Below, piece by piece: positions 158 to 14,607 of a stretch of DNA of 21,038 nucleotides (position 1 is its first letter; each line of letters starts with the position of its first letter). The DNA lies in the IMG/VR virus record IMGVR_UViG_3300010318_000075, positions 1-21,038 of that record, one strand, 5' to 3'. The notes below the pieces were generated by a model. The model was not told where the DNA came from. It did no database searches and was given only the letters and a program-made list of their open reading frames with translations. This DNA comes from a virus. A program made the translations under genes and the position numbers.

Positions 158-1333
158 CTACCCTACCACGAACAAAGTAGGTTCTGCACTTCCCATACCA
201 GGAGTTGCTCCTGTGAATAATTGTTCTTCTAATTTTTGTTTTTCCTGAATACCCTGCGTCATTAAATCTGTCGAAAATATTTGACCACCAAAAAGTTGTA
301 ATTGTCCATACTTACCACGAACATTGGCTACAGCAATTTTTGTTAACGCGAGAGCATACTCATACACCCAAAATTCCTTAATAATATCGCGAATTGGGCG
401 TTCCACATATGCTGATATTACACCATAAAAACGTGTATTTGCATTAGGCTGCGGATACATAGTCATGTACTGTGTTCTTTCATCAAATTTTAATTCACGC
501 TTTAGCGCGAGCATTTTTTCACGAGTATCTAACCAGTTCTTAAGCGTGTACCACGAAACTAAATCAAATCCATAATTACCCATTGCATAGCTAAAATATG
601 TTTGCTGTGCAAGTGTTTGTTCAATGGTAAATAAAGTGTTAATGCCTGTCGTACTTCCCTCTTCAAAATCTGTAACAGCTATAACTTTTCTATAATCCAT
701 TACATCATAATCAAACATCGAATTGAATTGCTCAACATTTGTATTTGTATCACATGCGCCTTGTAGCGTCACGCTATTTGTAGTTCTTTGAGTTGGTACA
801 AATGCACCGGTAAGAGATATAGAATGTGTAGCTTCAAATGATGTTAAAATATCGGTATACGTTGAGAAATTAAATAGCTGATAGTTTGATATGCCATCCG
901 TAAATACAGAAGAAAGTGTAGGTATAGATGTAAAGTATTGTGCTGGAATTGCGCTCGTACTTATGTATTCTGTTTGAGGTGACTCTACGTAAAATGTAGT
1001 AGATTTAGAAGTAGTTTGAGAATTATATACCTGTGATTGTGTTAAATTAGTATTTGCTAACGTATATAAAACATCTAATCTTATACCCTTATTACGTTCA
1101 TACAAATTAGAATCAAATATCAAATACTCTTGTGTATATCCCGCGTATTTTGAAAATAACTCACACGCAATGCTTATATTTTCAAAAATTTGATCCTGAT
1201 GTACTTCAACCGCGACAAGAGGTGCACCTAATGATCTTACAATTCTATCTGCAAGTCTACAAAATGAATCAATTCGATTGTTAAGATTGGTGGATTGAAA
1301 AGCCGAGATGGGCGTTATAACACAAGTAGCCAT
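158..1333 (-). CDS. Putative virion structural protein, 391 aa
   Basis: This 391-aa protein has no signal peptide or membrane segment. It follows the portal gene by 11 bases in the same direction, which suggests a head, neck or connector component. The N-terminal part (about residues 20-90) is helical, with a pattern (DQIFENISIACELF, then YAGYTQEYLIF) like that of adaptor or neck proteins in marine T4-like phages; this is a resemblance, not a firm assignment. The middle (about 105-250) is rich in Ser, Thr and aromatic residues and is probably beta-rich. The C-terminal third is charged and helical. A CATAAATA element at 1342-1349 sits eight bases before the ATG, so it should be expressed late. 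Confidence 0.6.
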   Translation of the reverse strand: MATCVITPISAFQSTNLNNRIDSFCRLADRIVRSLGAPLVAVEVHQDQIFENISIACELFSKYAGYTQEYLIFDSNLYERNKGIRLDVLYTLANTNLTQSQVYNSQTTSKSTTFYVESPQTEYISTSAIPAQYFTSIPTLSSVFTDGISNYQLFNFSTYTDILTSFEATHSISLTGAFVPTQRTTNSVTLQGACDTNTNVEQFNSMFDYDVMDYRKVIAVTDFEEGSTTGINTLFTIEQTLAQQTYFSYAMGNYGFDLVSWYTLKNWLDTREKMLALKRELKFDERTQYMTMYPQPNANTRFYGVISAYVERPIRDIIKEFWVYEYALALTKIAVANVRGKYGQLQLFGGQIFSTDLMTQGIQEKQKLEEQLFTGATPGMGSAEPTLFVVG

Positions 1334-1341: not shown

Positions 1342-1349
1342 TATTTATG
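1342..1349 (-). promoter_or_regulatory. Late promoter octamer CATAAATA
   Basis: One mismatch to TATAAATA. A T4-style start would leave a three-base leader before the ATG at 1331-1333. It overlaps the end of the portal gene. Confidence 0.5.
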
Positions 1350-3138
1350 ACGCTTGTGGTGGCTCCGGACCACCTGGAGGTGCTTCTTCTGGTGATTGAA
1401 ATCCGCCTGGCGGTGTTTCAAATTCTTGCGGTTCTTCCATAGCTGCCATTCCACCGCCAAAGTCAGGAGGCGATTCTATACCACCTCCCATTGGCATTCC
1501 TCCTCCTCCCTCACCGCCGGCTTCCGCAGCACCTTGACCCATAGCGAGCTTCCAGTAAGGACCAGCTTGTTGAATTTGAGCAAGTTCCCACTCAAACTCT
1601 TTGTCTTTACGAAGATGCTCTCTATTGACTTTAATATCAAGATCTGACCAGTTGAGAACTTTTTTCTGCAAGTATGTTGGTGAAATAGTAGGTCCAGATG
1701 CGAGATTATTATAATTTGATACTTTAAGCTCTAATCTTTGGCTCTCTCTAAGCTCATAATAATTTGTAGGTGGGTTAAATTCGATATCGATATAGTAATC
1801 TTTGAGATCCAGTTTCTTCCAAAGTCCCTTTAACATCAAATGTGTTATAAATCCTTTTTTAATGCCAGCGGCAAAAATCTGCTGCATACGAATAATAAAA
1901 CGAGCAAATTTCAACTCTTCACGCAAAATACTACTACCATCTGTAACTTGTGAGAGTGGATCTAAGCGATTAACTGGGACTTTAAGCGCTTCATAAAGTT
2001 TCTTCACAAAGTACATAAGATCAGTCAATTCACCGAGATTTTGTCCGCCCGCCAATTGATTGACACTAGTACCTTCACTACCCGCTCTTTTTGCAAACCA
2101 AAAACTATCTAGCATGCTCTGAGGATTAAATTTACGAACAACATCGTTTTGATCAACATCAAAGGTTTTGCTTGACCAATATTGAGATATTAATTTACGA
2201 AGATATGCTTCAGCTTTTGGTGGAGGCATATTGCCCACATCGACGTTGAAAACTAAGCGCTCAGGCGCACGAACAAGTCTGTATATAACAATAGAATCTT
2301 CAATTAATGATAATTGTCTATATGCACGTCTAGCATTTTCAATAAATGGCAGTCTTACAGTTTTGTTTTGATTCCATATTCCGCTGTGTATATACACAAC
2401 TTGATTCTCTTGCATAGGAATCATTTTCTCTTCTACTTTCTTTTTAGGATTAGTAGCATCAAAAATAGGTTTTCTATAGAGAAATCCCTTTACAATCATA
2501 TTTTGAATATTACTATAAACAGGATCGATAATTTCTGAAGGCACTTTGACTACACCTAAAACTCCTTTATCTAAATGCTCTTTGTGAATAATGTGTTCAA
2601 AGTAAAGCTCTCCCTCGGTTAGAAGTTCTCTAAAATACATCCACCCTTTATTTTCTAAATCAAAATACTGAACATATTTTTGAAATTCAAGTTGTAACTG
2701 CTCGTAATCAACAGCTTCTAACTGCTTATTACGAATTTTAAGAGTCATTACGTTGTTTTGATAATTTTTATTAATAGTCTCATCACATATTTCATCCAAT
2801 GCATTGGATACTTCAGCAAATGCTGCCATTATTCTATAGTCTTGAAGACGCGCACTCTTGTCTTCTTGAATATTAGCATACAGTAGATTGCCAAAATTGA
2901 CATCATGATACTCACCAAATACAGTCGAAAATAAATTAGATTGAGAGACAGAATGCTTAGAAAGCGCTTCATTTCTACGAATGCCCGTTTCTTCAAATGT
3001 CTTGTATTTTGGATTTTCCCGTTCTGTAAAATTCATTACATCAAATCCAGTATACGGCAATTTAGAAGAAATATATGACATTAACTGCCTTCCAAAAGTC
3101 TGCTGTACATTTGATTGACTGCTATATTTGTTGTCCAT
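1345..3138 (-). CDS. 20: Portal (head-tail vertex) protein, T4 gp20-like
   Basis: This 597-aa protein should form the dodecameric portal ring through which DNA is packaged and to which the tail attaches. The diagnostic region is about residues 290-400: RAPERLVFNVDVGNMPPPKA matches the conserved T4 gp20 block, followed by a Lys/Arg-rich stretch, then LAGGQNLGELTDLMYFVKKL and VPVNRLDP, in the same order as in gp20. The C-terminus (about 535-597) is a low-complexity Gly/Pro/Met/Glu tail not typical of T4 gp20. The length is close to the family's (T4 about 520 aa) plus that tail. The start ATG at 3136-3138 follows a TAAATA element by six bases. Confidence 0.93.
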   Translation of the reverse strand: MDNKYSSQSNVQQTFGRQLMSYISSKLPYTGFDVMNFTERENPKYKTFEETGIRRNEALSKHSVSQSNLFSTVFGEYHDVNFGNLLYANIQEDKSARLQDYRIMAAFAEVSNALDEICDETINKNYQNNVMTLKIRNKQLEAVDYEQLQLEFQKYVQYFDLENKGWMYFRELLTEGELYFEHIIHKEHLDKGVLGVVKVPSEIIDPVYSNIQNMIVKGFLYRKPIFDATNPKKKVEEKMIPMQENQVVYIHSGIWNQNKTVRLPFIENARRAYRQLSLIEDSIVIYRLVRAPERLVFNVDVGNMPPPKAEAYLRKLISQYWSSKTFDVDQNDVVRKFNPQSMLDSFWFAKRAGSEGTSVNQLAGGQNLGELTDLMYFVKKLYEALKVPVNRLDPLSQVTDGSSILREELKFARFIIRMQQIFAAGIKKGFITHLMLKGLWKKLDLKDYYIDIEFNPPTNYYELRESQRLELKVSNYNNLASGPTISPTYLQKKVLNWSDLDIKVNREHLRKDKEFEWELAQIQQAGPYWKLAMGQGAAEAGGEGGGGMPMGGGIESPPDFGGGMAAMEEPQEFETPPGGFQSPEEAPPGGPEPPQAS

Positions 3139-3169: not shown

Positions 3170-4321
3170 CTACGCTGAAAATGTAAAATGAGTGTTATAT
3201 GCATCAAGTGTAGTACTGTAACCAGCTTCATTTATGACAACTATATTAAAATCACCTGATGCAGTTAAATTAGGAACATTAATTGTCATATAATTTTCGT
3301 TTACGTAATTATAGCTACTTAAAATATAGCAGCTAATAGTATCATAATATGTAAAATCGAGCGCGGTAAGCTGACCATAAAATGAATCGCTATTATTACT
3401 GCATAGCGCAACCGTTGTTGTGTATTGAAAATTTTTACCCGCTAATGTTATTACCGAGCCAATGTCTGTACTCGTAAGTAAAATATCATTAAGGATAGGC
3501 TTTCCTATACCAGTAGTATTTGCAAAAAAAACATCAGTAATTTGCGGTGTAGCTGAAATGTAGATAGACTCAGTAAAGCCTGGAAGATCTAATGCGCTAA
3601 GTGTGGCATAATCATCGTACGTGGTGTATAATCTATTATAAGGTGCTCCTGAAAGTGTTCTTGTAGCATAAAAATTTGCATCAATAAAGAATATATTTTT
3701 TGTATTAGATTGTGGTGCTTCAGGAAATAACCATCCCTTAATTGTAAAGCTTGTATCGCCACTAACTCTATAATTATCATTTGCATTTAACTCTTCTGGA
3801 TATCGCAAATCTATGCTTCCAGACCAATCTACTTCAGATCTAATTTCATACGTCTCAGTTAAATTAAAGGCGCTTGGTATTTTCCATACAATAATAATAT
3901 ATGGATTAGTATATGCTCCAAAATTCGAAATAATCTGCTCTATATCAGTTTGATATTTTGCTAATATACTAAGATTAACACTTATATTAATTGGAACAGG
4001 TGTATCTATTTTACTTGAAAATTCAGTAGATTTTTGTTCTAGCGTAGTAGGATAATAAAAGCCCTCAATTTTATTAAACACGCGAGATGGATCGCGCTGT
4101 ACCCTATTAATAGAAACACTAACAACAGGAAGAGTTATGTTTTTTGCTTTATTAACAATATCATATATTACACGCTGCTTCGGTGCATAGACATACCGCA
4201 CTTCAATTTGATCTGCTGTTGATCTGTCGTTATTAAATCTCTTAATAACACAATCATCAAATGCCGCAATAAATTGAGTAATAACATCTTTAATTTCAAA
4301 ATGAAATGCTTGATTATTCAC
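3170..4321 (-). CDS. Tail terminator/sheath stabiliser-like protein (gp15-like) with Ig-like C-terminus
   Basis: The N-terminal 240 residues follow the layout of T4 gp15, which caps the tail tube and sheath: a YVYAPKQRVI segment, then LPVVSVSINRV, an ISVNLSILAKYQTDIEQII segment, and TSFTIKGWLFPEAPQ, matching gp15's conserved SLTFEVNGWMYPP region. After about residue 245 there is an extra domain of about 130 residues (ATPQITDVFF, SVITLAGKNF, MTINVPNLTASGDFNIVVIN) with the look of an IPT/TIG immunoglobulin-like fold, a common phage surface decoration. The start codon is GTG at 4319-4321, placed six bases after AGTAAATA. It could instead be another gp3/gp15-family neck protein. Confidence 0.6.
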   Translation of the reverse strand: MNNQAFHFEIKDVITQFIAAFDDCVIKRFNNDRSTADQIEVRYVYAPKQRVIYDIVNKAKNITLPVVSVSINRVQRDPSRVFNKIEGFYYPTTLEQKSTEFSSKIDTPVPINISVNLSILAKYQTDIEQIISNFGAYTNPYIIIVWKIPSAFNLTETYEIRSEVDWSGSIDLRYPEELNANDNYRVSGDTSFTIKGWLFPEAPQSNTKNIFFIDANFYATRTLSGAPYNRLYTTYDDYATLSALDLPGFTESIYISATPQITDVFFANTTGIGKPILNDILLTSTDIGSVITLAGKNFQYTTTVALCSNNSDSFYGQLTALDFTYYDTISCYILSSYNYVNENYMTINVPNLTASGDFNIVVINEAGYSTTLDAYNTHFTFSA

Positions 4322-4327: not shown

Positions 4328-4335
4328 TATTTACT
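4328..4335 (-). promoter_or_regulatory. Late promoter-like element (AGTAAATA) before a GTG start
   Basis: Six bases separate this TAAATA-type element from the GTG at 4319-4321. The spacing agrees with the other late genes and supports GTG as the real start. It overlaps the last base of the upstream DUF1501 gene. Confidence 0.4.
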
Positions 4336-5576
4336 CACAACAAAATACTATTAATAGGTTTTCCTCTATCAGCTAATTTAAATGGCCTTCCTTCTGGCGA
4401 TACAAGTTCTTGTTCAATTGGAAGGTTTGCAGCGCGTGCAATTGTCGCGTTAAAATCCATAGGTGAAACTTGTCCCTCAACAACCTTCATACCTTTTTCA
4501 TCAGTAGTGCCGTATACTTGCCCGCCGCGAATGCCCGCACCAATTAAAACACCACTAAATGCACTTGGATGATGATCACGGCCATTATTAATATTAATAT
4601 TCGGTGTACGACCAAAATCAGTCGCAATAACTATTAATGTTTTACTTAATAACCCGGATGATTGAAGATCATTAATAAGTGCATTTACAGCTTTATCTAA
4701 TATTAGTAGTTTTGTTTCGAGTGCTTCAAAGTTATTAACGTGTGTATCCCATCCGCTATCCTGTACCTCGATAAACTTGCAGTTACCCCTCTCAATCAAT
4801 CTCTTTGCAAGACAACATCCCTGTCCAAAACGGCTATCACCATATTTCTCACGAATATGTTGACTTTCTTTTGATAAATCAAATACTTCTAAATCTTTAG
4901 AATTGAGAAGGCGAATTGTTTGATCATAAAATTCAGTGTAGCTCTTCTTCTGTGGATTCAATAAGCTTTGTGTTTCCGGTTCCATTTTTTTAAGAATGGA
5001 AACGCGCTTCGAAAACTCTTCAGTGCTCTTAATAGTTGAGTTATCAAGTCCACGAACAGGATCAGAAATTGGAACCGGTGCATACTTTTTAGGCATCCAG
5101 CCAGCTCCTGGATGATCAGCAGGTCCGCTTATAAGCACGTTTTGTGGAATGGTGTGTAGCTTTCCAGTATCTTGCAAATTGCACATCCAAGCGCCTAAAT
5201 TAGGATGAACAATAGTTCCAATCTTTTTAAAACTAGTACGTTGAATATATTGTGCTTGCTCGTGTGCTCCTGTGGTTACAGTCAAAGAACGTACAATTGC
5301 CATCTTATCTCCATGTTTTGCTATATTTGGCAAGTGCTGAGATATTTCATGACCAGCAGAAGTTCTAATTGTAGAGAATTCTCCCTTTACATCCTCATTA
5401 GTTTTTGGATCCCATGAGTCGAGATGACTCATTCCACCATTCATATAAAGATAAATAATGTGCTCTGCAGTCTTTGAATTTGCAGGAAGCGCGCCTCGCA
5501 CTTCAGGCATAATAGATACTCCTAAGCTAGTGTATGCAAGATTTAATATAAAATCACGACGAGTTGTTGTTTTCAT
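4335..5576 (-). CDS. DUF1501 family exported protein (alkaline-phosphatase-like fold)
   Basis: A 413-aa member of the DUF1501 family, typical of Planctomycetota and Verrucomicrobiota and related in fold to alkaline phosphatases and sulfatases. It opens with a Tat-type signal (TTRRDFI, Arg6-Arg7, then a hydrophobic stretch), as family members do. Family motifs are present: LYMNGGMSHLDSWDPK near residue 50, GWDTH, a DFGRTP motif, and GRDHHPSAFSGVLIGAGI, containing the likely metal-binding His and Asp residues. Its biochemical role is unknown even in bacteria. In those genomes it is usually paired with a DUF1549/DUF1553 gene, and that partner is also here, two genes upstream. Its ATG overlaps the stop of the small gene upstream (ATGA), so the two are translationally coupled. 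A bacterial-type exported protein inside a phage structural cluster is unusual. Confidence 0.9.
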   Translation of the reverse strand: MKTTTRRDFILNLAYTSLGVSIMPEVRGALPANSKTAEHIIYLYMNGGMSHLDSWDPKTNEDVKGEFSTIRTSAGHEISQHLPNIAKHGDKMAIVRSLTVTTGAHEQAQYIQRTSFKKIGTIVHPNLGAWMCNLQDTGKLHTIPQNVLISGPADHPGAGWMPKKYAPVPISDPVRGLDNSTIKSTEEFSKRVSILKKMEPETQSLLNPQKKSYTEFYDQTIRLLNSKDLEVFDLSKESQHIREKYGDSRFGQGCCLAKRLIERGNCKFIEVQDSGWDTHVNNFEALETKLLILDKAVNALINDLQSSGLLSKTLIVIATDFGRTPNININNGRDHHPSAFSGVLIGAGIRGGQVYGTTDEKGMKVVEGQVSPMDFNATIARAANLPIEQELVSPEGRPFKLADRGKPINSILL

Positions 5577-5782
5577 GGTTGTGCTGCTTTAAGTTTTATA
5601 TAATACTGCGGATCTTTCGCAAGGCGATCGCGTACAATTTTTTCCGCAATTTTTGGATCATCTGTATATTTCATTTCAATATCGATACCAATTTGTAAAT
5701 GTTTGTGAAACGATTTTTTATCGGTCATATTTTCTAATATGATATTATTATAATTGTTCCATATGTTTAAATTATCACTCAT
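5573..5782 (-). CDS. Small DUF5661-like protein, 69 aa
   Basis: A 69-aa acidic protein with no signal peptide. The second half (IGIDIEMKYTDDPKIAEKIV, then RDRLAKDPQYYIKL) follows the DUF5661 pattern, in which a 'type E.EHT.DP..A..IA..HLAE.P.YY..L' segment is conserved in many phage and bacterial proteins of unknown function. It lies between the DUF1549 and DUF1501 genes, sharing one base with the former's stop (TAATG) and four bases with the latter's start (ATGA). The three genes form one coupled unit. A TATAAATA directly abutting its ATG is also the end of the upstream coding frame and may be chance. Confidence 0.75.
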   Translation of the reverse strand: MSDNLNIWNNYNNIILENMTDKKSFHKHLQIGIDIEMKYTDDPKIAEKIVRDRLAKDPQYYIKLKAAQP

Positions 5783-7545
5783 TATTTATAAAATTTAAAT
5801 TCTGTGGTATTTATAAGCGTCCATATAGCATCTTTTTCTGATACATTTGCAAGCATTGATTTTTCACGCACAGTTGATGGACGGCATAGGATAGCTTTGA
5901 AAAGAATCTCTACTTGCTCATTTGGTGTTTTATTTCTTATACGTTCAAATAAATATCCTGTTTCGCTAGATGCAATATCGACGATTTGTCCATTCATAAA
6001 AGAAATTACTTGTGTTACGGATCCTTCCGTGGATGATGTATCTATTAATTCTCTATCCGATCTGCCCAACTGTTCAAGAATTGTATTCATTGCACTTGTA
6101 TCGTTTATTTCAGATGCTCGCACAAGTGTGAGATTTTTATATTTTGGTGCATCGGTGTATTTATTTCTTATAACTGTGTTATATTGATCAACGCGATTTT
6201 TTACATTTTCAACATTAATATCCTCAATATCAATTTTCATTGTCTTAACATATTCACTATCGAAATTAGTTCTATATTTCTCAGGTAGCTCTACAACAAG
6301 TGCAAGCGTTGAGTCCCATAGTTGTTCAGCTGTCAGTCTGCGCTGAACCGGACCAATGAAAACAAAACGACTACTGTTAGCATTTTGACCTTCATAAAGA
6401 GCTCTTTCAAATAACTGCGTTTTACACAAAATGCGAATAAACTCTTTTGTATCATAATTTATTTTAATAAAAATGCTGGATAATAAGTTTAGCAGAGGAC
6501 TATTCAACTTACTACTATCTTGTATATTATCATATTCTCTAATTATATATTGACCAAAAATTTGACACCACATTCTATTCACAAAGTTTTTTGTAAATGT
6601 AGGATGTTTTGAACTTGTGAGCCAATTTACTGCGTCGACTCTCAGATCTTCACTCTTCGGTAGAACCTTTCCATCCAAGGTTTTTGCACTCACTGTACTA
6701 TTTGGCTTACCATCACTGTATTGATAATCATGTGGCAATTTAAGCGTTCTTGAGTTATCTAAAATTACAGATGCTTGAGTTGCGCGAAGAAAATTATTAA
6801 GTCTATTATTAAGTCCTCTATTTTTTTCAGGATCTTCTTTTATGAGTGCCTCGACATCAGTTCTTAACATTTTAAGCTTAGCGTTGTACTCTGTACTCGT
6901 TTTATTAAGGACAATTTGAGGAAAAAACGCTGCCATTTCATAAAATTGCATTTGTGAAATGTCTTGAAAAGGATCATCGTGGCACTGTGCGCAACTAATA
7001 TCTGTTCCTGCAAACACTTTGAATGTAGCAATTAAATTATCAAGTGGCATTCCATAATCTCTGTAGTAATACCCGGTAGCAGGATTATCATAATAGCTAC
7101 CTGAACTTAAAAGCAGATCCCTTACAAAAATATTATATGGTTTATTTTGCGCAATTGAATTCTTAATATACTCAATATATGGTATTCCATTGAAATTATT
7201 AATTGGTGAAAGTCTTTCTCTCAAACGTAGCGAATTAGCCCAATAATTATACTGAGAAGATACAAATCCGGGATGATTTATAAGAAAATCAATTAAACGC
7301 TTACGCTTATCTTTCACTTGTATCTTGTTAAAAGACTCATACTCAAAATATGTTGGAATTCTTCCAATAATTGTGAGGTAAGCTCGCTTAACAAAATCAT
7401 CATCACTAATAATGCTGTTGGGCTGTACTTTTGCTAATTTATATTGATCCATTAACACAGTATCTATTTGATTGCTATAATTCTGCGCTATTGATGAAGA
7501 AACACAAAAAAATATTACACAAACAAGTTCAATTACACCTTTCAT
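5782..7545 (-). CDS. Secreted DUF1549/DUF1553 protein with a CxxCH motif
   Basis: A 587-aa protein beginning with a Sec signal peptide (hydrophobic residues 4-20, cleavage likely near SIAQ). The DUF1549 region follows (about 30-210) and contains CAQCHDDPF at residues 185-193, a CxxCH that could bind c-type heme and that is characteristic of this planctomycete family. Next is a DUF1553-like region (about 300-430): VNWLTSSKHPTFTKNFVNRM, FGQYI, then QRRLTAEQLWDS. Many planctomycete members are longer and carry extra N-terminal cytochrome domains; this is the compact form. Its function in bacteria is not established; it is commonly encoded beside DUF1501, as here. The gene starts after a TAAATA-type late element at 7561-7568 with a leader of about ten bases, so it is probably expressed late with the virion genes. 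Confidence 0.9.
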   Translation of the reverse strand: MKGVIELVCVIFFCVSSSIAQNYSNQIDTVLMDQYKLAKVQPNSIISDDDFVKRAYLTIIGRIPTYFEYESFNKIQVKDKRKRLIDFLINHPGFVSSQYNYWANSLRLRERLSPINNFNGIPYIEYIKNSIAQNKPYNIFVRDLLLSSGSYYDNPATGYYYRDYGMPLDNLIATFKVFAGTDISCAQCHDDPFQDISQMQFYEMAAFFPQIVLNKTSTEYNAKLKMLRTDVEALIKEDPEKNRGLNNRLNNFLRATQASVILDNSRTLKLPHDYQYSDGKPNSTVSAKTLDGKVLPKSEDLRVDAVNWLTSSKHPTFTKNFVNRMWCQIFGQYIIREYDNIQDSSKLNSPLLNLLSSIFIKINYDTKEFIRILCKTQLFERALYEGQNANSSRFVFIGPVQRRLTAEQLWDSTLALVVELPEKYRTNFDSEYVKTMKIDIEDINVENVKNRVDQYNTVIRNKYTDAPKYKNLTLVRASEINDTSAMNTILEQLGRSDRELIDTSSTEGSVTQVISFMNGQIVDIASSETGYLFERIRNKTPNEQVEILFKAILCRPSTVREKSMLANVSEKDAIWTLINTTEFKFYK

Positions 7546-7560: not shown

Positions 7561-7568
7561 TATTTATT
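7561..7568 (-). promoter_or_regulatory. Late promoter octamer (AATAAATA), DUF1549/DUF1501 operon
   Basis: One mismatch to TATAAATA. A T4-style start would fall about ten bases before the ATG at 7543-7545. It lies in the divergent region 7546-7640, opposite a second late element for the plus-strand gene. Confidence 0.5.
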
Positions 7569-7640: not shown

Positions 7641-7967
7641 ATGCCAATTCCAACAACAAACGACGGAACAACGTATTATAATATCAATCAATGTAAGTCA
7701 TTTCGTGTAGCACTTACAACAGCTCTTTCATCTTTTCCTAGCCAGGTATGCTCGGAAGTTATTGTAAAAAACACTTCAGGGCAAGACATTTTGATATACG
7801 ATCAAAACTTCTTTGACGATACAAACAGCTTCGCCTTATCTGCTGATAATGAATTTACATTTAGAGGTGTAACGAATTCAGATCAAATTAGCGCAAAAAC
7901 AACAGGTGGCGCAGGATCAATTAGCATAAGAACACAGTTCTTTTCTATTGCTGTGCAGCGTCCTTAA
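7641..7967 (+). CDS. Small late protein, 108 aa, possibly virion-associated
   Basis: A 108-aa protein with no signal peptide or membrane segment, rich in Thr, Ser and aromatic residues and probably beta-structured. The segment VIVKNTSGQDILIYDQNFF and the closing SISIRTQFFSIAVQ resemble small beta-sandwich decoration or fibre-associated proteins seen in marine phages, but no named family is recognised. It is one of only two plus-strand genes here. Its stop is directly adjacent to the stop of the convergent metalloprotease gene (7967/7968). A late element precedes it, so a structural role is reasonable. Confidence 0.65.
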   Translation: MPIPTTNDGTTYYNINQCKSFRVALTTALSSFPSQVCSEVIVKNTSGQDILIYDQNFFDDTNSFALSADNEFTFRGVTNSDQISAKTTGGAGSISIRTQFFSIAVQRP

Positions 7968-8450
7968 TTATTTATTTTTTTCTCGTGCAATAAAAAATTG
8001 GCGATACTTATACATCTCTTTTAGTGAAATTTTTGTCTGTGATTGAAATTCACCGTGCATAATATCATCTGGATTAGTTGAATGTGGTAAATCCATAATA
8101 TGCCCTATTTCATGAAGTAGTGTGGTAATAAGTGGAATCTTTTTACTGCAAAACCTTGCAAAAAAACCACCAGTGTGCCATTTTGTATTTATATCAAGCA
8201 CAATATCCCAATTTCCGGGTCCCTTTTTATCTCTACACTCCGCTACACGCGTAGGATATTTTTGCTTATCAATTGTACCATCAAAAAAAATTCGGCACTG
8301 CAACTCTCCATAGCCGTATTTAAATTCTACCAACCCAGCCATGGTTCGATTCCACTCACTCATCGCTTTTTTAAGAGCAACTATTATTTTTGTTTGAGTG
8401 AGATTGCTTGGAATGTGTGAAGGTAAAAATACACAACTTACTGTAGTCAT
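7968..8450 (-). CDS. Matrixin-like zinc metalloprotease, 160 aa
   Basis: The catalytic signature HEIGHIMDLPH (His113, Glu114, His117, His123) is the HExxHxxGxxH-type zinc site of metzincins, and DDIMH about eight residues later fits the Met-turn. Upstream, IIVALKKAMSEWN and a WDIVLDINTKWHTGGFFARF segment match the matrixin (M10) layout. There is no signal peptide or propeptide, so it would act in the cytoplasm or be carried in the particle; possible roles are virion protein processing or cleavage of a host protein. The ATG at 8448-8450 is chosen over a start 14 codons upstream because CATAAATA lies exactly five bases before it and the longer form would run into the tRNA-like element at 8462-8530. 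Confidence 0.85.
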   Translation of the reverse strand: MTTVSCVFLPSHIPSNLTQTKIIVALKKAMSEWNRTMAGLVEFKYGYGELQCRIFFDGTIDKQKYPTRVAECRDKKGPGNWDIVLDINTKWHTGGFFARFCSKKIPLITTLLHEIGHIMDLPHSTNPDDIMHGEFQSQTKISLKEMYKYRQFFIAREKNK

Positions 8451-8455
8451 GTATA

Positions 8456-8463
8456 TATTTATG
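8456..8463 (-). promoter_or_regulatory. Late promoter octamer (CATAAATA) with start on the ATG
   Basis: Exactly five bases separate the octamer from the metalloprotease ATG, so a T4-type late transcript would begin on the A of the start codon. This decides the start choice for the gene. Confidence 0.55.
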
Positions 8464-8530
8464 ACGGCCCTGGCAAGATTGAGTACTTGCATAAACAGAT
8501 AAGCCTGCGCGTAAATTCCGCCACAGGGCC
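8462..8530 (-). ncRNA. Degenerate tRNA-like element with perfect acceptor stem
   Basis: The ends form a perfect 7-bp acceptor-like stem (GGCCCTG/CAGGGCC) followed by G and TCA rather than CCA. Next to it a TGGCGGAATT stretch resembles a Leu/Ser-type D arm (GCG/CGC), and GCAAG/CTTGC forms a T-like stem with an eight-base loop (TACTCAAT). The 18 bases where an anticodon arm should be do not form a 5-bp stem with 7-base loop. It is either a decayed tRNA or a tRNA mimic in the leader of the metalloprotease gene. Confidence 0.4.
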
Positions 8531-8540: not shown

Positions 8541-9149
8541 TTATGCGCCTTGTTTTACTAACTCAACACTTCTATCTTCTAAAACATCAACAAAGGCAAC
8601 CCATCCGATTATTTTTTTATTTTTATTGAGTATTCTGCTCGCATATGCTCGTATCGGAATAATCACTCCAGTTCTTGATATCCAACGATATTCCATATTA
8701 AAATCGCGATTTTCTTTAATACAAGATTCCCACTCCAAAAAAACTTCCTCTTTATCTAATTGATGTACAAATTGTTTCCAATTATCACCTGCGACATCTA
8801 AAAATTCACACTCAAGAATAGCGCGCATATATTTATTAGCATATATACACATACCTAAATTATCACTCTGCCACACAGGACTTGTTAGTGTATCCCATGT
8901 AGATCGTGCCATTCCAATTGCGGTAATAGCTTCATTTTCTAATTTGTGTATCGATAATTGAATTTCGTGTATACGAGAGGGTGCTCGTACAGAGTTAATC
9001 ACCCATAAAACAAATACACGTAATGTCTTGCGCCACACACATGTAAGGGCTGCTAGTATAGTTGCTAATACAGCAAGCCATGCATTCCACCAATGTGGGT
9101 CAAATATATTATCTAGCGCATCTTTTGATGGTCCCGGTATGTTATCCAT
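8541..9149 (-). CDS. Membrane-anchored PAS domain protein, 202 aa
   Basis: The N-terminal part contains a strongly hydrophobic helix (about residues 19-48: WWNAWLAVLATILAALTCVW and onward) bounded by Lys/Arg, a membrane anchor. Residues 85-195 form a PAS/PAC domain: WQSDNLGMCIYANKYMRAIL, a core near FVHQLDKEEVFLEWESCI, and the PAC-like FNMEYRWISRTGVIIPIRAY followed by IIGWVAFVDVLED. No kinase, GGDEF or other output domain follows, so it would sense or dock rather than signal by itself. A late element (9158-9165) leaves a three-base leader. A membrane PAS protein made late might respond to lysis timing or membrane state; this is inference. Confidence 0.75.
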   Translation of the reverse strand: MDNIPGPSKDALDNIFDPHWWNAWLAVLATILAALTCVWRKTLRVFVLWVINSVRAPSRIHEIQLSIHKLENEAITAIGMARSTWDTLTSPVWQSDNLGMCIYANKYMRAILECEFLDVAGDNWKQFVHQLDKEEVFLEWESCIKENRDFNMEYRWISRTGVIIPIRAYASRILNKNKKIIGWVAFVDVLEDRSVELVKQGA

Positions 9150-9183: not shown

Positions 9184-9257
9184 TGGAGCTTTCAACGAGA
9201 ATCGCACTCGTATTTCATCCGTACCAAGGATGTGTAATGCTATTATACTATAAAAGC
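9184..9257 (-). tRNA. tRNA-Thr(GGU)
   Basis: Acceptor GCTTTTA/TGAAAGC with T73 and encoded CCA; anticodon arm CATCC-TTGGTAC-GGATG gives GGU. The D loop has A18-G19 (ATAGC) and the T loop is TGCGATT with G55: the non-canonical elbow type. Its 5' ten bases overlap the end of the 9248-9712 gene. Confidence 0.85.
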
Positions 9258-9712
9258 TTTTTCGCTATTTTAAAATCGCTATACTCTTCTGTTTTACATA
9301 TAGACTCGGATAATGTTCTATACCACCCACTACTATTTTTACATAGCTGTCCCTCCTCACCTGTCACCTCACATGTTTTATCACACAAGAATTCAGCAAA
9401 GCGAATCATTCCACTAACATCCGAATCACCACCTGTGCAATAAAATCTTAATCCACCAAATTTCTGCTTTATTTGATCAATCTTTACAAAACTGGGCTCC
9501 TCCTTTATAATCTCTCCTGTTTCAGAATCTTTTCGATAACGTACTGTGAGTAATACATAATCGTATATTGATCCGCACAGATTATCTATGATTTTTTCCC
9601 AACCAAGCGGTACATCCACACCGCACGGACAACTTAAAATATCACCACACTCATAGAACAGCTTGGGGTATTTTTGCTTTAATCGCTCTTCAAAATCTAT
9701 TTGCTCGCTCAT
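9248..9712 (-). CDS. Conserved phage protein of unknown function, 154 aa
   Basis: A soluble 154-aa protein of a type common in phages but not functionally named. It is recognised by LKQKYPKLFYECGD near the N-terminus, GWEKIIDNLCGSIYDYV in the middle and IKQKFGGLRFYCTGG followed by a Cys-bearing C-terminal part (LCDKTCEVTGEEGQLC then GWYRTL). In relatives the last part looks like a CxxC zinc site; here the spacing is partly eroded. The ATG at 9710-9712 is chosen because a longer frame would start inside tRNA-Leu. The gene ends within the 5' end of tRNA-Thr(GGU), so translation and tRNA processing compete for the same transcript. Confidence 0.7.
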   Translation of the reverse strand: MSEQIDFEERLKQKYPKLFYECGDILSCPCGVDVPLGWEKIIDNLCGSIYDYVLLTVRYRKDSETGEIIKEEPSFVKIDQIKQKFGGLRFYCTGGDSDVSGMIRFAEFLCDKTCEVTGEEGQLCKNSSGWYRTLSESICKTEEYSDFKIAKKLL

Positions 9713-9719
9713 TTTATTA

Positions 9720-9796
9720 TGGTACTCCGAGTGGGATTCGAACCCACAATCACCAAATTTTAAGTTTGGTGGCATTGCCAATTAGCCTACCGGAGC
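9720..9796 (-). tRNA. tRNA-Leu(UAA) with short variable loop
   Basis: Acceptor GCTCCGG/TCGGAGT, A73, encoded CCA; anticodon arm CCAAA-CTTAAAA-TTTGG gives UAA. D loop with TTGG and T loop TTCGAAT are canonical. The variable loop is only five bases (TGATT), whereas bacterial tRNA-Leu normally has a long variable arm. Confidence 0.9.
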
Positions 9797-10345
9797 ATTA
9801 ATTAATCTATTATCGTATATAACTGTACCTTTTTCGTTTTTATACTTTTCTAACTCTTCTTTTCTATTAGTAAGAAAATTTACTCGTTCATCATATGTAA
9901 TTGAATTACTCGTACAATCAACAAAACAATTAGGCGTCTCGTAAAGCCGTACACTGTATATTTTTAAATTCTTAGTTGTGAGTAATTTTTCACTTAACAG
10001 AAATATTTCTTTTGAGATGTTTTCTGCGGTTGGATTGCAAAATCCGCTTTTACCATTTAGTGTAACTGTCCATACCTTTGAATGTACTTGATCGCACGCT
10101 TCAAGAAAAACACTATCTGTTGGATTCGCAATAAACCCGTGGTCAAATCTATCTTCTATAAATTGCCCTACAATGCGCTTTATCTCCTTAAAGTCAATAG
10201 CATATCCAATATCTTCAATGTGGTCGTGTTTAAACGTAAGCTCATATTGATATAAATGACCGTGAAGATTTCTACACGCACTTGTTTGGTGTAGAACTCT
10301 GTGAGCTGCATCAAAAGTCCCTTTTCGTGTAATATATTGCATCAT
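9782..10345 (-). CDS. queD: QueD / 6-pyruvoyl-tetrahydropterin synthase family enzyme
   Basis: A 187-aa T-fold enzyme that probably converts dihydroneopterin triphosphate to 6-carboxy-tetrahydropterin, the early step to preQ0 and queuosine. Key residues are visible: the zinc ligands in FDAAHR and the HGH motif, the catalytic Cys four residues before that motif (CRNLHGH), the FDHGFI segment, NPTAENISKEIF, and the late Glu in RLYETPN. The ATG pair at 10340-10345 is preferred over an upstream GTG because that GTG lies within the hairpin at 10358-10388, and CTTAAATA ends exactly five bases before 10345. No other queuosine or deazaguanine gene is in the window. Its last 15 bases overlap tRNA-Leu(UAA). 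Q-modified tRNAs are those with G34; this array carries such Asp, Asn and His tRNAs. Confidence 0.88.
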   Translation of the reverse strand: MMQYITRKGTFDAAHRVLHQTSACRNLHGHLYQYELTFKHDHIEDIGYAIDFKEIKRIVGQFIEDRFDHGFIANPTDSVFLEACDQVHSKVWTVTLNGKSGFCNPTAENISKEIFLLSEKLLTTKNLKIYSVRLYETPNCFVDCTSNSITYDERVNFLTNRKEELEKYKNEKGTVIYDNRLINAPVG

Positions 10346-10350
10346 CAATA

Positions 10351-10358
10351 TATTTAAG
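10351..10358 (-). promoter_or_regulatory. Late promoter-like element (CTTAAATA) before queD
   Basis: Five bases separate it from the ATG at 10343-10345, placing a T4-style start on the A of the start codon. It abuts the terminator-like hairpin. Confidence 0.45.
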
Positions 10359-10388
10359 TGCGGAGTGTCTGAAATAGACACTCCGCAC
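10358..10388 (-). terminator. 13-bp perfect hairpin between the DUF932-like gene and queD
   Basis: GTGCGGAGTGTCT pairs perfectly with AGACACTCCGCAC around a five-base loop. It lies 13 bases after the stop of the DUF932-like gene and just before queD. There is no clean U run (only TTAAATATATT follows), so it may be a weak terminator or an mRNA-end stabiliser that insulates the late queD promoter. Confidence 0.6.
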
Positions 10389-10401
10389 AGATTAGAGCAA
10401 A

Positions 10402-11421
10402 TTAATTTTTGCCTGCGTAAATATCAATCGTTCTTGTGCTAAGATCAGGGCCTTTAGTAAACATATCACTTGCAGCCTTATTAAGGTTTAGCGATTTACG
10501 AGATCCAATATTTTTTCTTCTGTGTGTTGCAGCATATGTTGCGATATTGAAGATATCATATGCATTTTGATCAGTTGCAACAAACCGCTGTTGCTTTACT
10601 GTTTTATCAAGCACTGCAACACCTCGCTTACCGTAATCGTTAATAATGCGTTCATAAAATGGCATGAGTTCATCAACACCATTTTTTGATAAACAGTCTG
10701 CTACTGCCTTGACCTCGTGAAACGAAGCACGTGTATTTCTTAATGCATTAACACGATCTGTAATGCTCTTACTTGCTGTCTTTCCTTTTGTATAGCTAAT
10801 GAACTGCTTATCAATGTTAGATGATTTACCTAGAACGCGTGTTGCAAGACGCTCACGTGTTGTCATGCCATTAGTACAAAGAAGGCGAAGGTAAAAATCA
10901 GTAAATGATTGTGTATCATATCCAATAGAGATTGTAGTTCCAAAATTCCAATCATCACCAATACCACATTCAATTATTTCATCAACGTTTGAATTAATGC
11001 TAACAGTAGCGTTATGGCTGTTAAAGGTAATATCGTGAAAAGAACGATCCGTATCTTCAAACGCATTCATAAGAGCATCGATTCTATTAGAAAAATCTAA
11101 ATTCTCTTCTTCACGCGGCGCCTTCTTTAGAACACTAACAACTTGATTATTATTATCAACAATAGCGCCAAGACGCTTATTCTTATCAATAGTGCTAAGA
11201 GCATCTTGTAAATCGGTCCACTTATTTTCGTGCGAATCGATAACCTTTCTTGAAAGAGTATTTTTAATGCCAAGGAGATCTAATAGTTGTGTATCTTGAA
11301 CAACTTTATGTCCTTTGATAAAAACTCTCTTGTCTCCACAAGCAATATCACGAACATTAAATGGAATAACTCTGTGGCGTTGAACTGTCTTTTTAACTGA
11401 ATCAATTGTATTTTTACTCAT
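10402..11421 (-). CDS. DUF932-like phage protein, 339 aa
   Basis: A 339-aa soluble protein. The central FTDFYLRLLCTNGMTTRERL resembles the conserved 'F..RLVCTNGM' core of DUF932 proteins, common on phages and plasmids and of unknown molecular function. The N-terminal VFIKGHKVVQDTQLLDLLGI and ENKWTDLQDALSTIDKNKRL are also typical of large-phage relatives. There is no signal peptide or catalytic motif that I recognise. The ATG at 11419-11421 is preferred because a longer frame would begin inside tRNA-Leu(CAA). No late octamer precedes it; an AT-rich TATATTTTG sits just upstream, so it may be an earlier-class gene. It ends 13 bases before the hairpin. Confidence 0.65.
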   Translation of the reverse strand: MSKNTIDSVKKTVQRHRVIPFNVRDIACGDKRVFIKGHKVVQDTQLLDLLGIKNTLSRKVIDSHENKWTDLQDALSTIDKNKRLGAIVDNNNQVVSVLKKAPREEENLDFSNRIDALMNAFEDTDRSFHDITFNSHNATVSINSNVDEIIECGIGDDWNFGTTISIGYDTQSFTDFYLRLLCTNGMTTRERLATRVLGKSSNIDKQFISYTKGKTASKSITDRVNALRNTRASFHEVKAVADCLSKNGVDELMPFYERIINDYGKRGVAVLDKTVKQQRFVATDQNAYDIFNIATYAATHRRKNIGSRKSLNLNKAASDMFTKGPDLSTRTIDIYAGKN

Positions 11422-11481
11422 ATACAAAATATAATATAAACAGTTTATTTGGCAACTCTTTTTTATTCCATGTTCAAAAAA

Positions 11482-11558
11482 TGGTAGCTGAGGTGGGATT
11501 CGAGCCCACATAAAATAGATTTTGAATCTATCGCGTATACCAGTTCCGCCACTCAGCT
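11482..11558 (-). tRNA. tRNA-Leu(CAA) with short variable loop
   Basis: Acceptor AGCTGAG/CTCAGCT, A73, CCA; anticodon arm ATAGA-TTCAAAA-TCTAT gives CAA. The D arm (TGGCGGAACTGGTATACGC) looks Leu-like, but the variable loop is only TTTAT. T loop CTCGAAT keeps U55 and has C54. Confidence 0.9.
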
Positions 11559-11561
11559 ATA

Positions 11562-11650
11562 TGGAGGACATACAGAGGATCGCACTCTGCGTAAGAATTT
11601 AATCTATGCGGTTTTGCAGACCGCTGCGTTCACTAGCTCGCTCTATGTCC
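11562..11650 (-). tRNA. tRNA-Cys(GCA) with long variable arm
   Basis: Acceptor GGACATA/TATGTCC with T73 (the Cys identity base) and CCA; anticodon arm GCGGT-CTGCAAA-ACCGC gives GCA. An 18-base variable region (ATAGATTAAATTCTTACG) can form AGA/TCT, so this 89-nt gene looks class II, which tRNA-Cys normally is not. D loop CTAGTGA and T loop TGCGATC are the A18-G55 elbow type. Confidence 0.85.
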
Positions 11651-11680
11651 ATTTACACCTGCCCGGTTAGCTCTACATGC

Positions 11681-11890
11681 TTATTGTGTTAAATTATGTA
11701 TTTTTTCAAGACGCTTTTCAAGATTACGAATACGTCTAATCGAAACAGCGAGCGCTATTTGACTTTGTGGTTTATTCAGATCTTTTACACGCGTATTGAA
11801 TTTACCATCCTCAATTACGCTATAATTAAGATAATCACAGCAGAGCCAATCACCCCACTTATTTGTTAACTTTTCATTCAGTATTTTCAT
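11681..11890 (-). CDS. Small phage protein, 69 aa
   Basis: A 69-aa basic protein of unknown function. The second half (SQIALAVSIRRIRNLEKRLEK) is a likely coiled helix. Its start overlaps the end of the upstream 69-aa gene by 17 bases, so the pair is probably translated together. It lies between tRNA-Cys and tRNA-Ala. No family is recognised. Confidence 0.6.
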   Translation of the reverse strand: MKILNEKLTNKWGDWLCCDYLNYSVIEDGKFNTRVKDLNKPQSQIALAVSIRRIRNLEKRLEKIHNLTQ

Positions 11891-12083
11891 CTTCTACTTC
11901 AAAATAGTTTAGAGTTAAATCATTATAAACAGCGTCAAAAATAAATCCCCTCATATCATCATCTCCCAGTTGATCAATTAGATTTTTGTAGATTGCATCT
12001 TGCTGCTCGCTAAGCGCAAAAATTTTAACACGCGCTTCATCAATCAGTTCCTTTTCTTTTTTGCTTATTTTTGTTTTTACCAT
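11874..12083 (-). CDS. Small acidic phage protein, 69 aa
   Basis: A 69-aa protein with a Lys-rich start (MVKTKISKKEKELIDEARVK) and a very acidic end (FEVEDENTE); mostly helical and soluble, with no recognised family. The start at 12081-12083 has no Shine-Dalgarno or late octamer upstream and follows tRNA-Ala by about 28 bases, so it may be read from the tRNA transcript. Confidence 0.6.
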   Translation of the reverse strand: MVKTKISKKEKELIDEARVKIFALSEQQDAIYKNLIDQLGDDDMRGFIFDAVYNDLTLNYFEVEDENTE

Positions 12084-12111
12084 TATACTTAACTATATTA
12101 TGATGAAATGT

Positions 12112-12188
12112 TGGTGGAGGTGAGGAGGTTCGAACTCCTAGATCTTTCGAGTGCAAGTCGAATGCTTTACCAATTAAGCTACACCCCC
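12112..12188 (-). tRNA. tRNA-Ala(UGC)
   Basis: Acceptor GGGGGTG/CACCTCC contains the G3-U70 wobble, the Ala identity signal, with A73 and CCA. Anticodon arm TTCGA-CTTGCAC-TCGAA gives UGC. D loop AATTGGTA and T loop TTCGAAC are canonical. Confidence 0.93.
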
Positions 12189-12195
12189 TGAGTTG

Positions 12196-12630
12196 CTACT
12201 CATTAGAAATTTTCTTCATCTTCAACTCATTTCTTACTTCCATTAAAAGCTTACCAAGATGATTCTCACCCTTACCATCCTTAACGGTCTTGCCCCAATA
12301 TTTATCACCCCAATTATTCCACTCAACAATCTCTTCATCTCCTGTATCTAACAGTTTTTGACCTTGTTTAGTATCAAGACGAAATTTGTGCTTTAATGCG
12401 AGACGCATTATTGCAAATTTCGTCTCATCATTCCAGTCATCCCTTACTGTTAGTTTTCGGCCCAGTTTTTTTGCCTTAAACGGCGTGACAGCTGCTATTT
12501 GTTTATGATCTTCAGGATCAAGAGATTTTTGTGCTTGATAGAAGTTTTCCACTGATCGGTATTTAATACCATTATGAAACAATGGATCTTCGAACAAAAT
12601 CATATTTGAAAACCAGTTCTTAATAAACAT
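12196..12630 (-). CDS. NADAR domain (YbiA-like) protein, 144 aa
   Basis: A single-domain NADAR protein of normal length. Diagnostic parts in order: FSNM, the KYRSVENFYQAQK segment, AKKLGRKLTVRDDWN, MRLALKHKF, TGDEEIVEWNNWGDKYWG and NHLGKLLMEVR. NADAR enzymes are linked to ADP-ribose or NAD-derived metabolites; characterised members remove ADP-ribose from nucleic acids or cleave riboflavin-pathway intermediates. In a phage it could reverse an ADP-ribosylation-based defence or work in NAD salvage; this is inference. It is preceded by an A-rich leader of about 40 bases and an 18-bp hairpin. It ends eight bases before tRNA-Ala. Confidence 0.88.
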   Translation of the reverse strand: MFIKNWFSNMILFEDPLFHNGIKYRSVENFYQAQKSLDPEDHKQIAAVTPFKAKKLGRKLTVRDDWNDETKFAIMRLALKHKFRLDTKQGQKLLDTGDEEIVEWNNWGDKYWGKTVKDGKGENHLGKLLMEVRNELKMKKISNE

Positions 12631-12634
12631 AATA

Positions 12635-12671
12635 TTTTTTTTTGTTTTTTTTTTGTTTTTTTTTTGTTTTT
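12635..12671 (-). promoter_or_regulatory. Poly(A) leader with C every 11 bases, upstream of NADAR
   Basis: On the coding strand this is A9-10 blocks separated by single C residues, with the three C positions exactly 11 bases apart (12644, 12655, 12666). It ends four bases before the ATG. Such a leader would be unstructured and could enhance initiation without a Shine-Dalgarno; as DNA it is a phased A-tract and probably bent or stiff. Confidence 0.55.
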
Positions 12672-12716
12672 TTTTATTTTATATATTCGACAGCAATTCG
12701 AATATATAAAATAAAA
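12672..12716 (-). repeat. 18-bp perfect inverted repeat with 9-base loop
   Basis: Arms 12672-12689 and 12699-12716 are perfectly complementary, and nearly all A/T except a CG at the loop end. It begins one base after the CCA of tRNA-Val(UAC) and runs into the poly(A) leader. It lacks a U run on the coding strand, so it is not a normal terminator; a 3' processing signal for the tRNA or a protein/replication site is possible. Confidence 0.7.
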
Positions 12717-12717
12717 T

Positions 12718-12791
12718 TGGTACGGAATAGAGGTTTCGCGCCCCTTTCTCTTGGATGTAAGCCAAGCGTTCTACTATTGAACTAATCCCGC
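12718..12791 (-). tRNA. tRNA-Val(UAC)
   Basis: Acceptor GCGGGAT/ATTCCGT, A73, CCA; anticodon arm CTTGG-CTTACAT-CCAAG gives UAC. D loop AATAGTA (A18-G19) with T loop CGCGAAA (C54, G55) is the non-canonical elbow type. Its 5' 18 bases overlap the end of the 12774-13187 gene. Confidence 0.88.
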
Positions 12792-13187
12792 ATTTATCTT
12801 ATCAAATTTTACTAATTTTATTTCTTCTAATTTCGAACGTGTAAATATTAAATCAAATTCTACCCATACATTCTTTTTAGTATTATACTCGTAAACATTT
12901 AAAATCGCATGTACAGGATATTGCTCCCACCACGGCTCGCCAACCTCTTCAATGTGTCCCAGTCTATCAATCATACTCTCTGCACCTTCATCACCGTCAA
13001 CCCACCGTGTTTCACAAAAACGTCTTTCAAGAATGTTATCTTTTGTAACACGATACTCACTTAAAGTGCAGTCAAGTCCCTTCGTCTGCCCCACAAAGTA
13101 TTCTTCGAGATTAGATATATAATCTATAATACTCGAATCTTTTGGCAGCATCTCAACAGGTATACTAATTGTGTCAAACATTCCCAT
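12774..13187 (-). CDS. Conserved phage protein of unknown function, 137 aa
   Basis: A 137-aa soluble protein starting MGMFDTI, an opening shared by a family of small phage proteins without known function. It also has a VGQTKGLDCTLSEYRVTKDN segment and Trp-rich middle (EPWWEQYPVHA). The start at 13185-13187 lies five bases after GATAAATT, a diverged late element, and follows the previous gene by three bases. The last six codons overlap tRNA-Val. Confidence 0.65.
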   Translation of the reverse strand: MGMFDTISIPVEMLPKDSSIIDYISNLEEYFVGQTKGLDCTLSEYRVTKDNILERRFCETRWVDGDEGAESMIDRLGHIEEVGEPWWEQYPVHAILNVYEYNTKKNVWVEFDLIFTRSKLEEIKLVKFDKINAGLVQ

Positions 13188-13190
13188 ATA

Positions 13191-13679
13191 CTAATTTATC
13201 CAGTGCGGTTTATTTTGCTTCCATTTGTGAAGTTCTTTCTTATCAAAGATATAATACATTCTGTATTTTTCAACTGGAGAAACAATATTAAAATTTGGCT
13301 GTTTTCTACACACCGCATTTTCAGCAATTGCAATTGCAAAATCTGTTTGATCAATTTGATCAAATTTAATTTTATCTACATTTTCTCTACACCAGTCTAC
13401 TACTGCTTTTGACTTGTGAATTTTGCCGTATCTCTCTGTATACTCTTCACATAAACAGTCTACATGTTCTAGCAGCCATTCAAAATTTAATCGAGACTGT
13501 CTTGCCCAGATACACGATGGGTGATTTTTGTGAGTAGGTTTATATGGAGCATCGTACCCTTTCATATGAAAGGCTGTGCAGAGAATTTGACATGACTCAA
13601 CAATCATTTTTACAACGTGCTTATCGCACAGCCATTTTGCAGATTGTCTCGGGCAATCAGAAAGTGCAAATATATTCAA
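13191..13679 (-). CDS. Conserved phage protein of the MNIF...CDKHVVKM family, 162 aa
   Basis: A 162-aa protein belonging to a widespread but uncharacterised group in T4-like and cyanophages. Conserved parts: MNIFALS, CDKHVVKMIVESCQILC, PYKPTHKNHPSCIWARQS, YTERYGKIHKSK and VEKYRMYYIFDKK near the end. Invariant His, Cys and Lys residues suggest an enzyme or metal site, but none is established. The start codon is TTG at 13677-13679; family members begin exactly at MNIF, which supports it. A CTATTTATCA sequence precedes it rather than a clear late octamer. Confidence 0.72.
   Translation of the reverse strand: MNIFALSDCPRQSAKWLCDKHVVKMIVESCQILCTAFHMKGYDAPYKPTHKNHPSCIWARQSRLNFEWLLEHVDCLCEEYTERYGKIHKSKAVVDWCRENVDKIKFDQIDQTDFAIAIAENAVCRKQPNFNIVSPVEKYRMYYIFDKKELHKWKQNKPHWIN
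13193..13200 (-). promoter_or_regulatory. Diverged late element (GATAAATT)
   Basis: Differs from TATAAATA at two positions but lies exactly five bases before the ATG at 13185-13187, the same spacing as other late genes. It overlaps the end of the upstream coding region. Confidence 0.3.
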
Positions 13680-13702
13680 TGATAAATAGTGTTAATTGTT
13701 AA

Positions 13703-13777
13703 TGGGCTCTCTACTGGGAATTGAACCCAGTTAGGACGTCTCACAAACGTCGGCCTTACCATTAGGCTATAGAGAGC
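13703..13777 (-). tRNA. tRNA-His(GUG)
   Basis: Acceptor CTCTCTA/TAGAGAG with an encoded extra G(-1) opposite C73, the hallmark of tRNA-His, then CCA. Anticodon arm GACGT-TTGTGAG-ACGTC gives GUG. D loop AATGGTA and T loop TTCAATT are canonical. Confidence 0.93.
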
Positions 13778-13790
13778 ATTTGAAAGTTAA

Positions 13791-14594: not shown

Positions 14595-14599
14595 ATAAA

Positions 14600-14607
14600 T
14601 ATTTAGT
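14600..14607 (-). promoter_or_regulatory. Late promoter-like element (ACTAAATA)
   Basis: Exactly five bases before the HNH gene ATG at 14592-14594; predicted leaderless transcript. Confidence 0.45.

Follow-up and report, generated by a model that had tools for sequence, protein, structure and literature searches.

A DUF1549/DUF1553 and DUF1501 gene pair of PVC type carried as a cassette by uncultured T4-like phages

The gene pair and its immediate context

The viral record IMGVR_UViG_3300010318_000075 provides a 21-kb piece of an uncultured virus, analysed here over its full 21,038 nucleotides (hereafter the window). On its minus strand, running from 7545 to 4335, lies a cassette in the order DUF1549, 69-aa gene and DUF1501, followed by the genes for a gp15-like protein, a T4-type portal and an Ad2-like adaptor (Table 1). 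The first and last cassette genes form a pair of the type found in the Planctomycetes-Verrucomicrobia-Chlamydiae (PVC) superphylum; the first encodes a PSCyt2/DUF1549 and PSD1/DUF1553 protein (hereafter the DUF1549 protein). A preliminary description, made from the sequence alone, had announced this pair, and all three open reading frames (ORFs) are present with Pfam matches: the DUF1501 protein scores 323 bits against a gathering cut-off of 27 and covers positions 1-390 of the 390 of the profile, while PSCyt2 reaches 109.7 bits (cut-off 29.8) and PSD1 93.5 bits (cut-off 28.5). Since the cassette genes overlap by 1 and 4 nt, they constitute a coupled unit, located directly upstream of the gp15-like and portal genes as described. 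A homologue of the 69-aa protein also stands between the two pair genes in contigs L011 and L028. NCBIfam gives no match for the window or for its type A and B DUF1501 relatives, and one chance match below the cut-off for type C; a PADLOC search gives no match.

Table 1. Coordinates of the cassette, its signals and its flanking genes in the window
Feature	Position	Strand	Details
ATAAATA late-type motif	7561..7567	-	15 nt before the DUF1549 ATG
PSCyt2/DUF1549 + PSD1/DUF1553 protein	5782..7545	-	587 aa; PF07583 E 2.5e-31, PF07587 E 1.8e-26
Predicted Sec-type signal peptide of the DUF1549 protein	7483..7545	-	about residues 1-21, SIA/Q
CAQCH, putative c-type heme attachment motif	6979..6993	-	DUF1549 residues 185-189
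Exact TATAAATA within the DUF1549 gene, at its 3' end	5808..5815	-	25 nt before the 69-aa gene
69-aa DUF5661-like protein	5573..5782	-	PF18905, 27.1 bits against a cut-off of 27; overlaps both neighbours
DUF1501 protein, type A	4335..5576	-	413 aa; PF07394 E 3.7e-96
Predicted twin-arginine signal region of DUF1501, MKTTTRRDFILNLAYTSLGVS	5514..5576	-	R6 in 31/31, R7 in 30/31 phage type A rows
gp15-like tail sheath stabiliser (context only)	3170..4321	-	PF16724 E 1e-17
T4-type portal gp20 (context only)	1345..3138	-	PF07230 E 3.1e-95
Head-tail adaptor, Ad2-like (context only)	158..1333	-	phrog_211 E 3e-18
108-aa divergent ORF flanking the cassette	7641..7967	+	cluster 10, 9 loci; kept in relatives at the same site; no match in Pfam or PHROG

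Export signals, heme motif and selection

Export signals are predicted for both proteins of the pair from sequence and conservation. The N-terminus of DUF1501, MKTTTRRDFILNLA, contains a twin-arginine motif. The Sec signal of the DUF1549 protein was recognised by eye, and its hydrophobic stretch is present in the phage homologues whose alignment spans the N-terminus. The CAQCH motif, from which heme attachment is predicted, is kept in every homologue compared, 30/30 from phages and 70/70 from bacteria. The twin-arginine translocation (Tat) and Sec signals thus appear intact and the CxxCH motif is kept, in agreement with the preliminary description, and given these features both proteins should work outside the cytoplasm.

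The residues of DUF1501 that are invariant in bacteria (R6, R7, H51, D53, D56, H105, D277, H279, E/D320 and H335 in window numbering) are kept in the phage type A proteins. Nearly all of them are also retained in DUF1501-B, a separate lineage found in 23 contigs, with H51 in 13/14 rows and D53 in 11/14, the other three having E. Among the closest copies, the ratio of nonsynonymous to synonymous divergence (dN/dS) is about 0.06 for DUF1501 (0.048/0.81) and 0.08 for DUF1549 (0.075/0.93). The pair is preserved under strong selection and, judged by its motifs, invariant residues and dN/dS, is predicted to be functional.

Distribution and genomic positions

Besides the window, scans of IMG/VR revealed at least 30 viral contigs, the longest of 225 kb, that carry the pair, always with DUF1549 before DUF1501; in several relatives it adjoins the same gp15-portal-Ad2 genes. 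Searches of INPHARED and PHROGs with both proteins gave no match, and a literature search found no paper naming DUF1501 and DUF1553 together. Only one relative was found with a broken pair. In this 204-kb record (L102/G004), the first ~50 codons of DUF1549 are fused in frame to the last ~85 codons of DUF1501 (L102:8401-8802) at a shared 10-nt word, ATTAATGATG, so that both genes are gone in one clean deletion; a second DUF1501 is retained. No pair was found in the related T4-like phage records G010-G016, which may be incomplete.

The place of the pair is not constant. In group I phages, such as G001, it lies upstream of gp15, as in the window. In group II, to which G002 belongs, it is located between ORF c9 and a 5'-3' exonuclease gene, inside a helicase-SSB-clamp-primase cluster, and in group III it stands beside clamp-loader genes (the SSB, clamp and clamp-loader names being assigned by reading the sequences). 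In G003 it occupies yet another location. Between G001 and G002 the DUF1501-A proteins are 92% and the DUF1549 proteins 86% identical, whereas most core proteins are ~35-57% identical (portal 55%, clamp 35%, primase 47%). Moreover, G001, G003 and G004 have no insert at the group II site: in these phages c9 and the 5'-exonuclease gene are adjacent. High identity of the pair against low identity of the core indicates that the cassette moves between phages. The pair had been described as embedded among virion genes; this holds for the window and group I but not in general, and the constant place in the virion cluster expected of a virion structural gene was not found. With several positions on record, the linkage to virion genes in the window is one position among several and gives no clue to function.

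DUF1501 genes have entered these phages more than once. A second DUF1501 is present in many pair-bearing phages, each record holding one or two. DUF1501-C occurs in 15 contigs; among those checked, five carry a T4-type portal. In three contigs (L513, L514 and L520) it is accompanied by a PSCyt2 protein of ~990 aa; in L513, a record of 131,532 bases with a T4-type portal, a 456-aa DUF1501 is directly followed by a 990-aa protein read as PSCyt1-PSCyt2-PSD1 (L513:2998-7333). DUF1501-C and its 990-aa partner were captured separately from the type A pair, and such repeated capture points to a function useful to these phages. A possible decayed PSCyt2 trace is seen in G869. A holin-like ORF before DUF1501-B in group I raised the idea of a lysis cassette, which was set aside: its PHROG match is weak (E 0.0068) and Pfam gives none.

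A late-type motif accompanies the cassette

A late-type promoter had been placed before the unit. ATAAATA does stand there (Table 1), but no exact TATAAATA precedes DUF1549, the first cassette gene. A second exact copy of TATAAATA, besides the one listed in Table 1, is found at 5783-5790 (-), overlapping the DUF1549 stop; the window holds 8 exact matches against 4.2 expected. AATAAATAA before DUF1501-A was not counted as a motif, as it derives from the '(N/Y)K stop' coding end of DUF1549.

Among four large related phages, ATAAATA is enriched upstream of ORFs, with 30-42 occurrences on the same strand and 7-13 on the opposite strand. TAAATA is found within 40 nt upstream of 19/20 gp15, portal, Ad2 and prohead genes as opposed to 1/76 replication genes; it is found before 0/6 capsid genes, though these are virion genes. 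Outside group III, it precedes DUF1549 in 16/20 copies, including all eight (8/8) located within the replication module; the replication genes on either side of these show it in 0/54 cases. The corresponding Fisher values (1e-13 and 3e-10) overstate the contrast, the rows being related. A TATAAATA-like motif specific to the late-gene class, as in T4-type late promoters, is recognisable, and a late-type promoter of its own seems to come with the cassette.

Bacterial origin and host

The nearest bacterial relatives among the matches listed are 41-49% identical and belong mostly to Verrucomicrobiota (Verrucomicrobiaceae, Akkermansiaceae and Opitutales), with some Planctomycetota. The order DUF1549 then DUF1501 is the rule in bacteria and the same in phages. 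In the DUF1549 tree, the phages (24 rows) form one side of a branch with a Shimodaira-Hasegawa-like approximate likelihood ratio (SH-aLRT) of 94, inside a 95* set with 18 Verrucomicrobiota rows, mostly Verrucomicrobiaceae, and 2 Planctomycetota rows. When the best matches of 780 PVC genomes are added to the DUF1501 tree, the DUF1501-A phage branch remains with its support down to 65. These trees argue for a bacterial, PVC-type origin of the phage pair, probably through a single capture from a donor within the superphylum; Verrucomicrobia are favoured as donor but not proven. The 'Planctomycete-type' label first given to the pair thus holds at the level of the superphylum, although Verrucomicrobiota make up most of the closest relatives found, and Planctomycetota are possible.

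A Verrucomicrobiaceae contig (L194) resembles the phages in having both a pair of type A and a DUF1501 of type B, here within ~9 kb. A 'Roseibacillus' protein nested among phages in the first DUF1501 tree was discarded as coming from a chimeric contig. That contig (L134:1-8567, PBAI01000036.1, GTDB 'Roseibacillus') looks like ~4.95 kb of phage DNA with 33% G+C joined to DNA with 58% G+C, and its phage part holds the pair and, by eye, a lysozyme-like ORF.

The T4-like phages carrying the pair probably infect PVC bacteria. The pair had been taken as a hint at the host group, and it remains a hint at PVC; clustered regularly interspaced short palindromic repeat (CRISPR) spacers gave no proof of host. 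For this comparison, 2430 unique Verrucomicrobiota spacers were matched to 3.3 Mb of phage DNA with reversed spacers as control. The single match above control (30/34) was discounted, its target being an RNA-like element common to several viral contigs in which no similarity to these phages was detected.

The RNA-like element, GACTCAGCRGCGTGGACAGTGACACGC...GCTGGTGCAATTCCAGCCTGAGTC, is conserved and lies directly after a tRNA (L328:9400-9580, at ~29.4 kb of G001, and L345:12850-13000 of G002). Its core word occurs in 14 viral contigs, most of which show no detected similarity to these phages; a Verrucomicrobiaceae CRISPR array holds a related spacer. Rfam gives only a sub-threshold tRNA match on the downstream side (E 0.016) and ARAGORN none; the element is possibly an undescribed phage non-coding RNA.

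Structure models and comparison with known systems

The DUF1501 model shares the fold of the alkaline phosphatase superfamily (ENPP, PafA, sulfatases, LtaS), with Z values of 15-18, the best being VIA Z 18.0 to ENPP6 (243 residues, 3.4 A) and 17.3 to PafA. It differs from that superfamily in that identity is 10-15% and no solved structure found is closely related to it; at profile level it resembles sulfatases and LtaS weakly. D, H and E residues are conserved, and with this fold DUF1501 would probably hydrolyse phosphate or sulfate esters in a metal-dependent manner. The DUF1549/1553 model, of good confidence with a predicted local distance difference test (pLDDT) score of 84.7, is all helical; the structure search found no clear fold relative, its C-terminal part being weakly like phycobilisome linker domains (Z 6.9).

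The phage pair is the same as the bacterial PSCyt2-PSD1 and DUF1501 pairs of Planctomycetota and Verrucomicrobiota in Pfam domains, order, twin-arginine and heme motifs and invariant residues, but the DUF1549 protein of the phages is smaller, at 587 aa compared with 626-911 aa. In seven bacterial genomes of Verrucomicrobia type, PSCyt2 genes number 39-67 per genome. Like the auxiliary (moron) genes of T4-like phages, the pair is host-derived; it is non-core and variable in presence and position among related phages, and is under purifying selection. It differs from them in consisting of two exported proteins, one with a c-type heme motif, and INPHARED and PHROGs yielded no member. The soxD product is a c-type cytochrome. 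The phage-borne sox and dsr genes described in PMC8190135 offer a parallel in that an exported redox protein borne by a phage needs heme attachment by the host; there the sulfur pathway is known, while here a PVC-type domain pair has no assigned pathway.

Possible role of the cassette

The following mechanism is proposed. An ancestor of these T4-like phages would have taken the DUF1549/1553 and DUF1501 pair from a PVC bacterium. Late in infection, the DUF1501 protein would leave by Tat and the DUF1549 protein by Sec, the latter receiving one heme from the host. Both would then work jointly in the periplasm or the outer envelope of the host, altering an envelope polymer or glycan in a way that may aid release, or block re-adsorption or superinfection. 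It is the combination of late timing and export that ranks an envelope role above a metabolic one. We judge the chances to be evenly balanced that the pair is host-derived PVC cargo, passed between phages as a cassette, exported late and acting in the host envelope. A broader proposal, that PVC phages repeatedly captured DUF1501, with or without the cytochrome partner, and use it late in infection as an exported system that depends on heme and modifies the envelope for release, anti-adsorption or exclusion, is offered more tentatively.

Several points weigh against an envelope role late in infection. The DUF1501 model has moderate confidence (mean pLDDT 64.9), and we know of no substrate for any DUF1501 or PSCyt2 protein, bacteria included, so that the enzymatic role is one we infer. 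E320 is replaced by D in 19/31 phage DUF1501-A proteins, and CHDHP beside the heme motif by CHDDP in 29/30 phage DUF1549 proteins; the activity may thus differ from that of the host enzymes. Expression of the pair seems to be late, a timing that is read from the motif in rows related to one another; in group III another motif, TAAGTAT, takes its place in 6/7 cases. The clean loss in L102/G004, together with the records G010-G016, shows that the pair is dispensable, and the host group is not proven.

A metabolic role is possible, although we think it unlikely. The exported pair would process periplasmic sulfated or phosphorylated oligosaccharides, from which the infected cell would obtain the carbon, sulfate or phosphate needed to make phages. 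It would agree with the fold that DUF1501 shares with sulfatases and with the genomes of freshwater Verrucomicrobia, in which PSCyt genes often adjoin sulfatases, some PSCyt genes include carbohydrate-binding modules, and the products are predicted to be periplasmic or cytoplasmic (PMC5615132). However, the late-type motif suits nutrient supply less well, and no transport or sugar genes are seen travelling with the cassette. The mobile position and the loss of the pair in L102 could also be those of selfish or incidental cargo, carried through easy transfer with little effect on infection; the low dN/dS values, the invariants intact across deep divergence, the several captures and the cassette itself, in which no endonuclease or transposase is seen, make this improbable.

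Incorporation of the pair proteins into the particle, one of the uses suggested in the preliminary description, is more improbable still. The window and the group I relatives have the pair directly upstream of gp15, portal and Ad2, and a virion-type motif precedes it. This linkage, the sole support of the suggestion, is lost with the near-identical copy in the replication module of G002 and with the copies elsewhere; in addition, related phages are found without the pair, and the export signals and heme motif are kept although they would be unneeded in a particle assembled in the cytoplasm. An assembly chimera or a prophage boundary joining bacterial DNA to a phage contig is refuted by the relatives, although a chimera of this kind does exist elsewhere (L134). 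The same pair occurs in the contigs cited above from many samples with common flanks, it is intact in relatives on contigs of 184, 197 and 225 kb, and the G+C content is even across the window (31-43%), below the 54-64% seen in five of the bacterial loci checked.

Bacterial PSCyt2/DUF1501 pairs, which occur dozens of times per PVC genome, have been called uncharacterised (PMC5615132, PMC4452313), and the phages offer a minimal, single-copy and strictly conserved version of them, a stripped-down system in which to look for the substrate. If the broader proposal above is correct, a first functional access would be gained to a gene family that ranks among the most expanded in Verrucomicrobia and Planctomycetes. 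The pair is also a marker for a large group of T4-like phages from lakes and sea that are uncultured.

Other features of the window and its relatives

In some group I phages, DUF1549 is directly preceded by a gene for an FMN-reductase-like protein with a weak match (L014:5430-6203; PF03358, 23.2 bits against 24), a possible redox partner. Beyond the 108-aa ORF, the window encodes a Matrixin-type metalloprotease (7968-8492 (-); PF00413) without PHROG match, homologues of which lie near the cassette in L012, L013 and L015. It is followed by a PAS-domain protein with a hydrophobic N-terminal segment (8541-9149 (-)); an ORF similar by eye is found near DUF1501-C (L214:9361-9912). The right-hand half is occupied by a tRNA array interleaved with small ORFs (9184-20993 (-)), in which ARAGORN finds 23 genes and Rfam 25. 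Within the region of this array lies a QueD-like gene (9782-10381), and at 12196-12630 (-) a gene for a NADAR-domain protein (PF08719, E 5.5e-26) that is weakly like T4 gp30.3.

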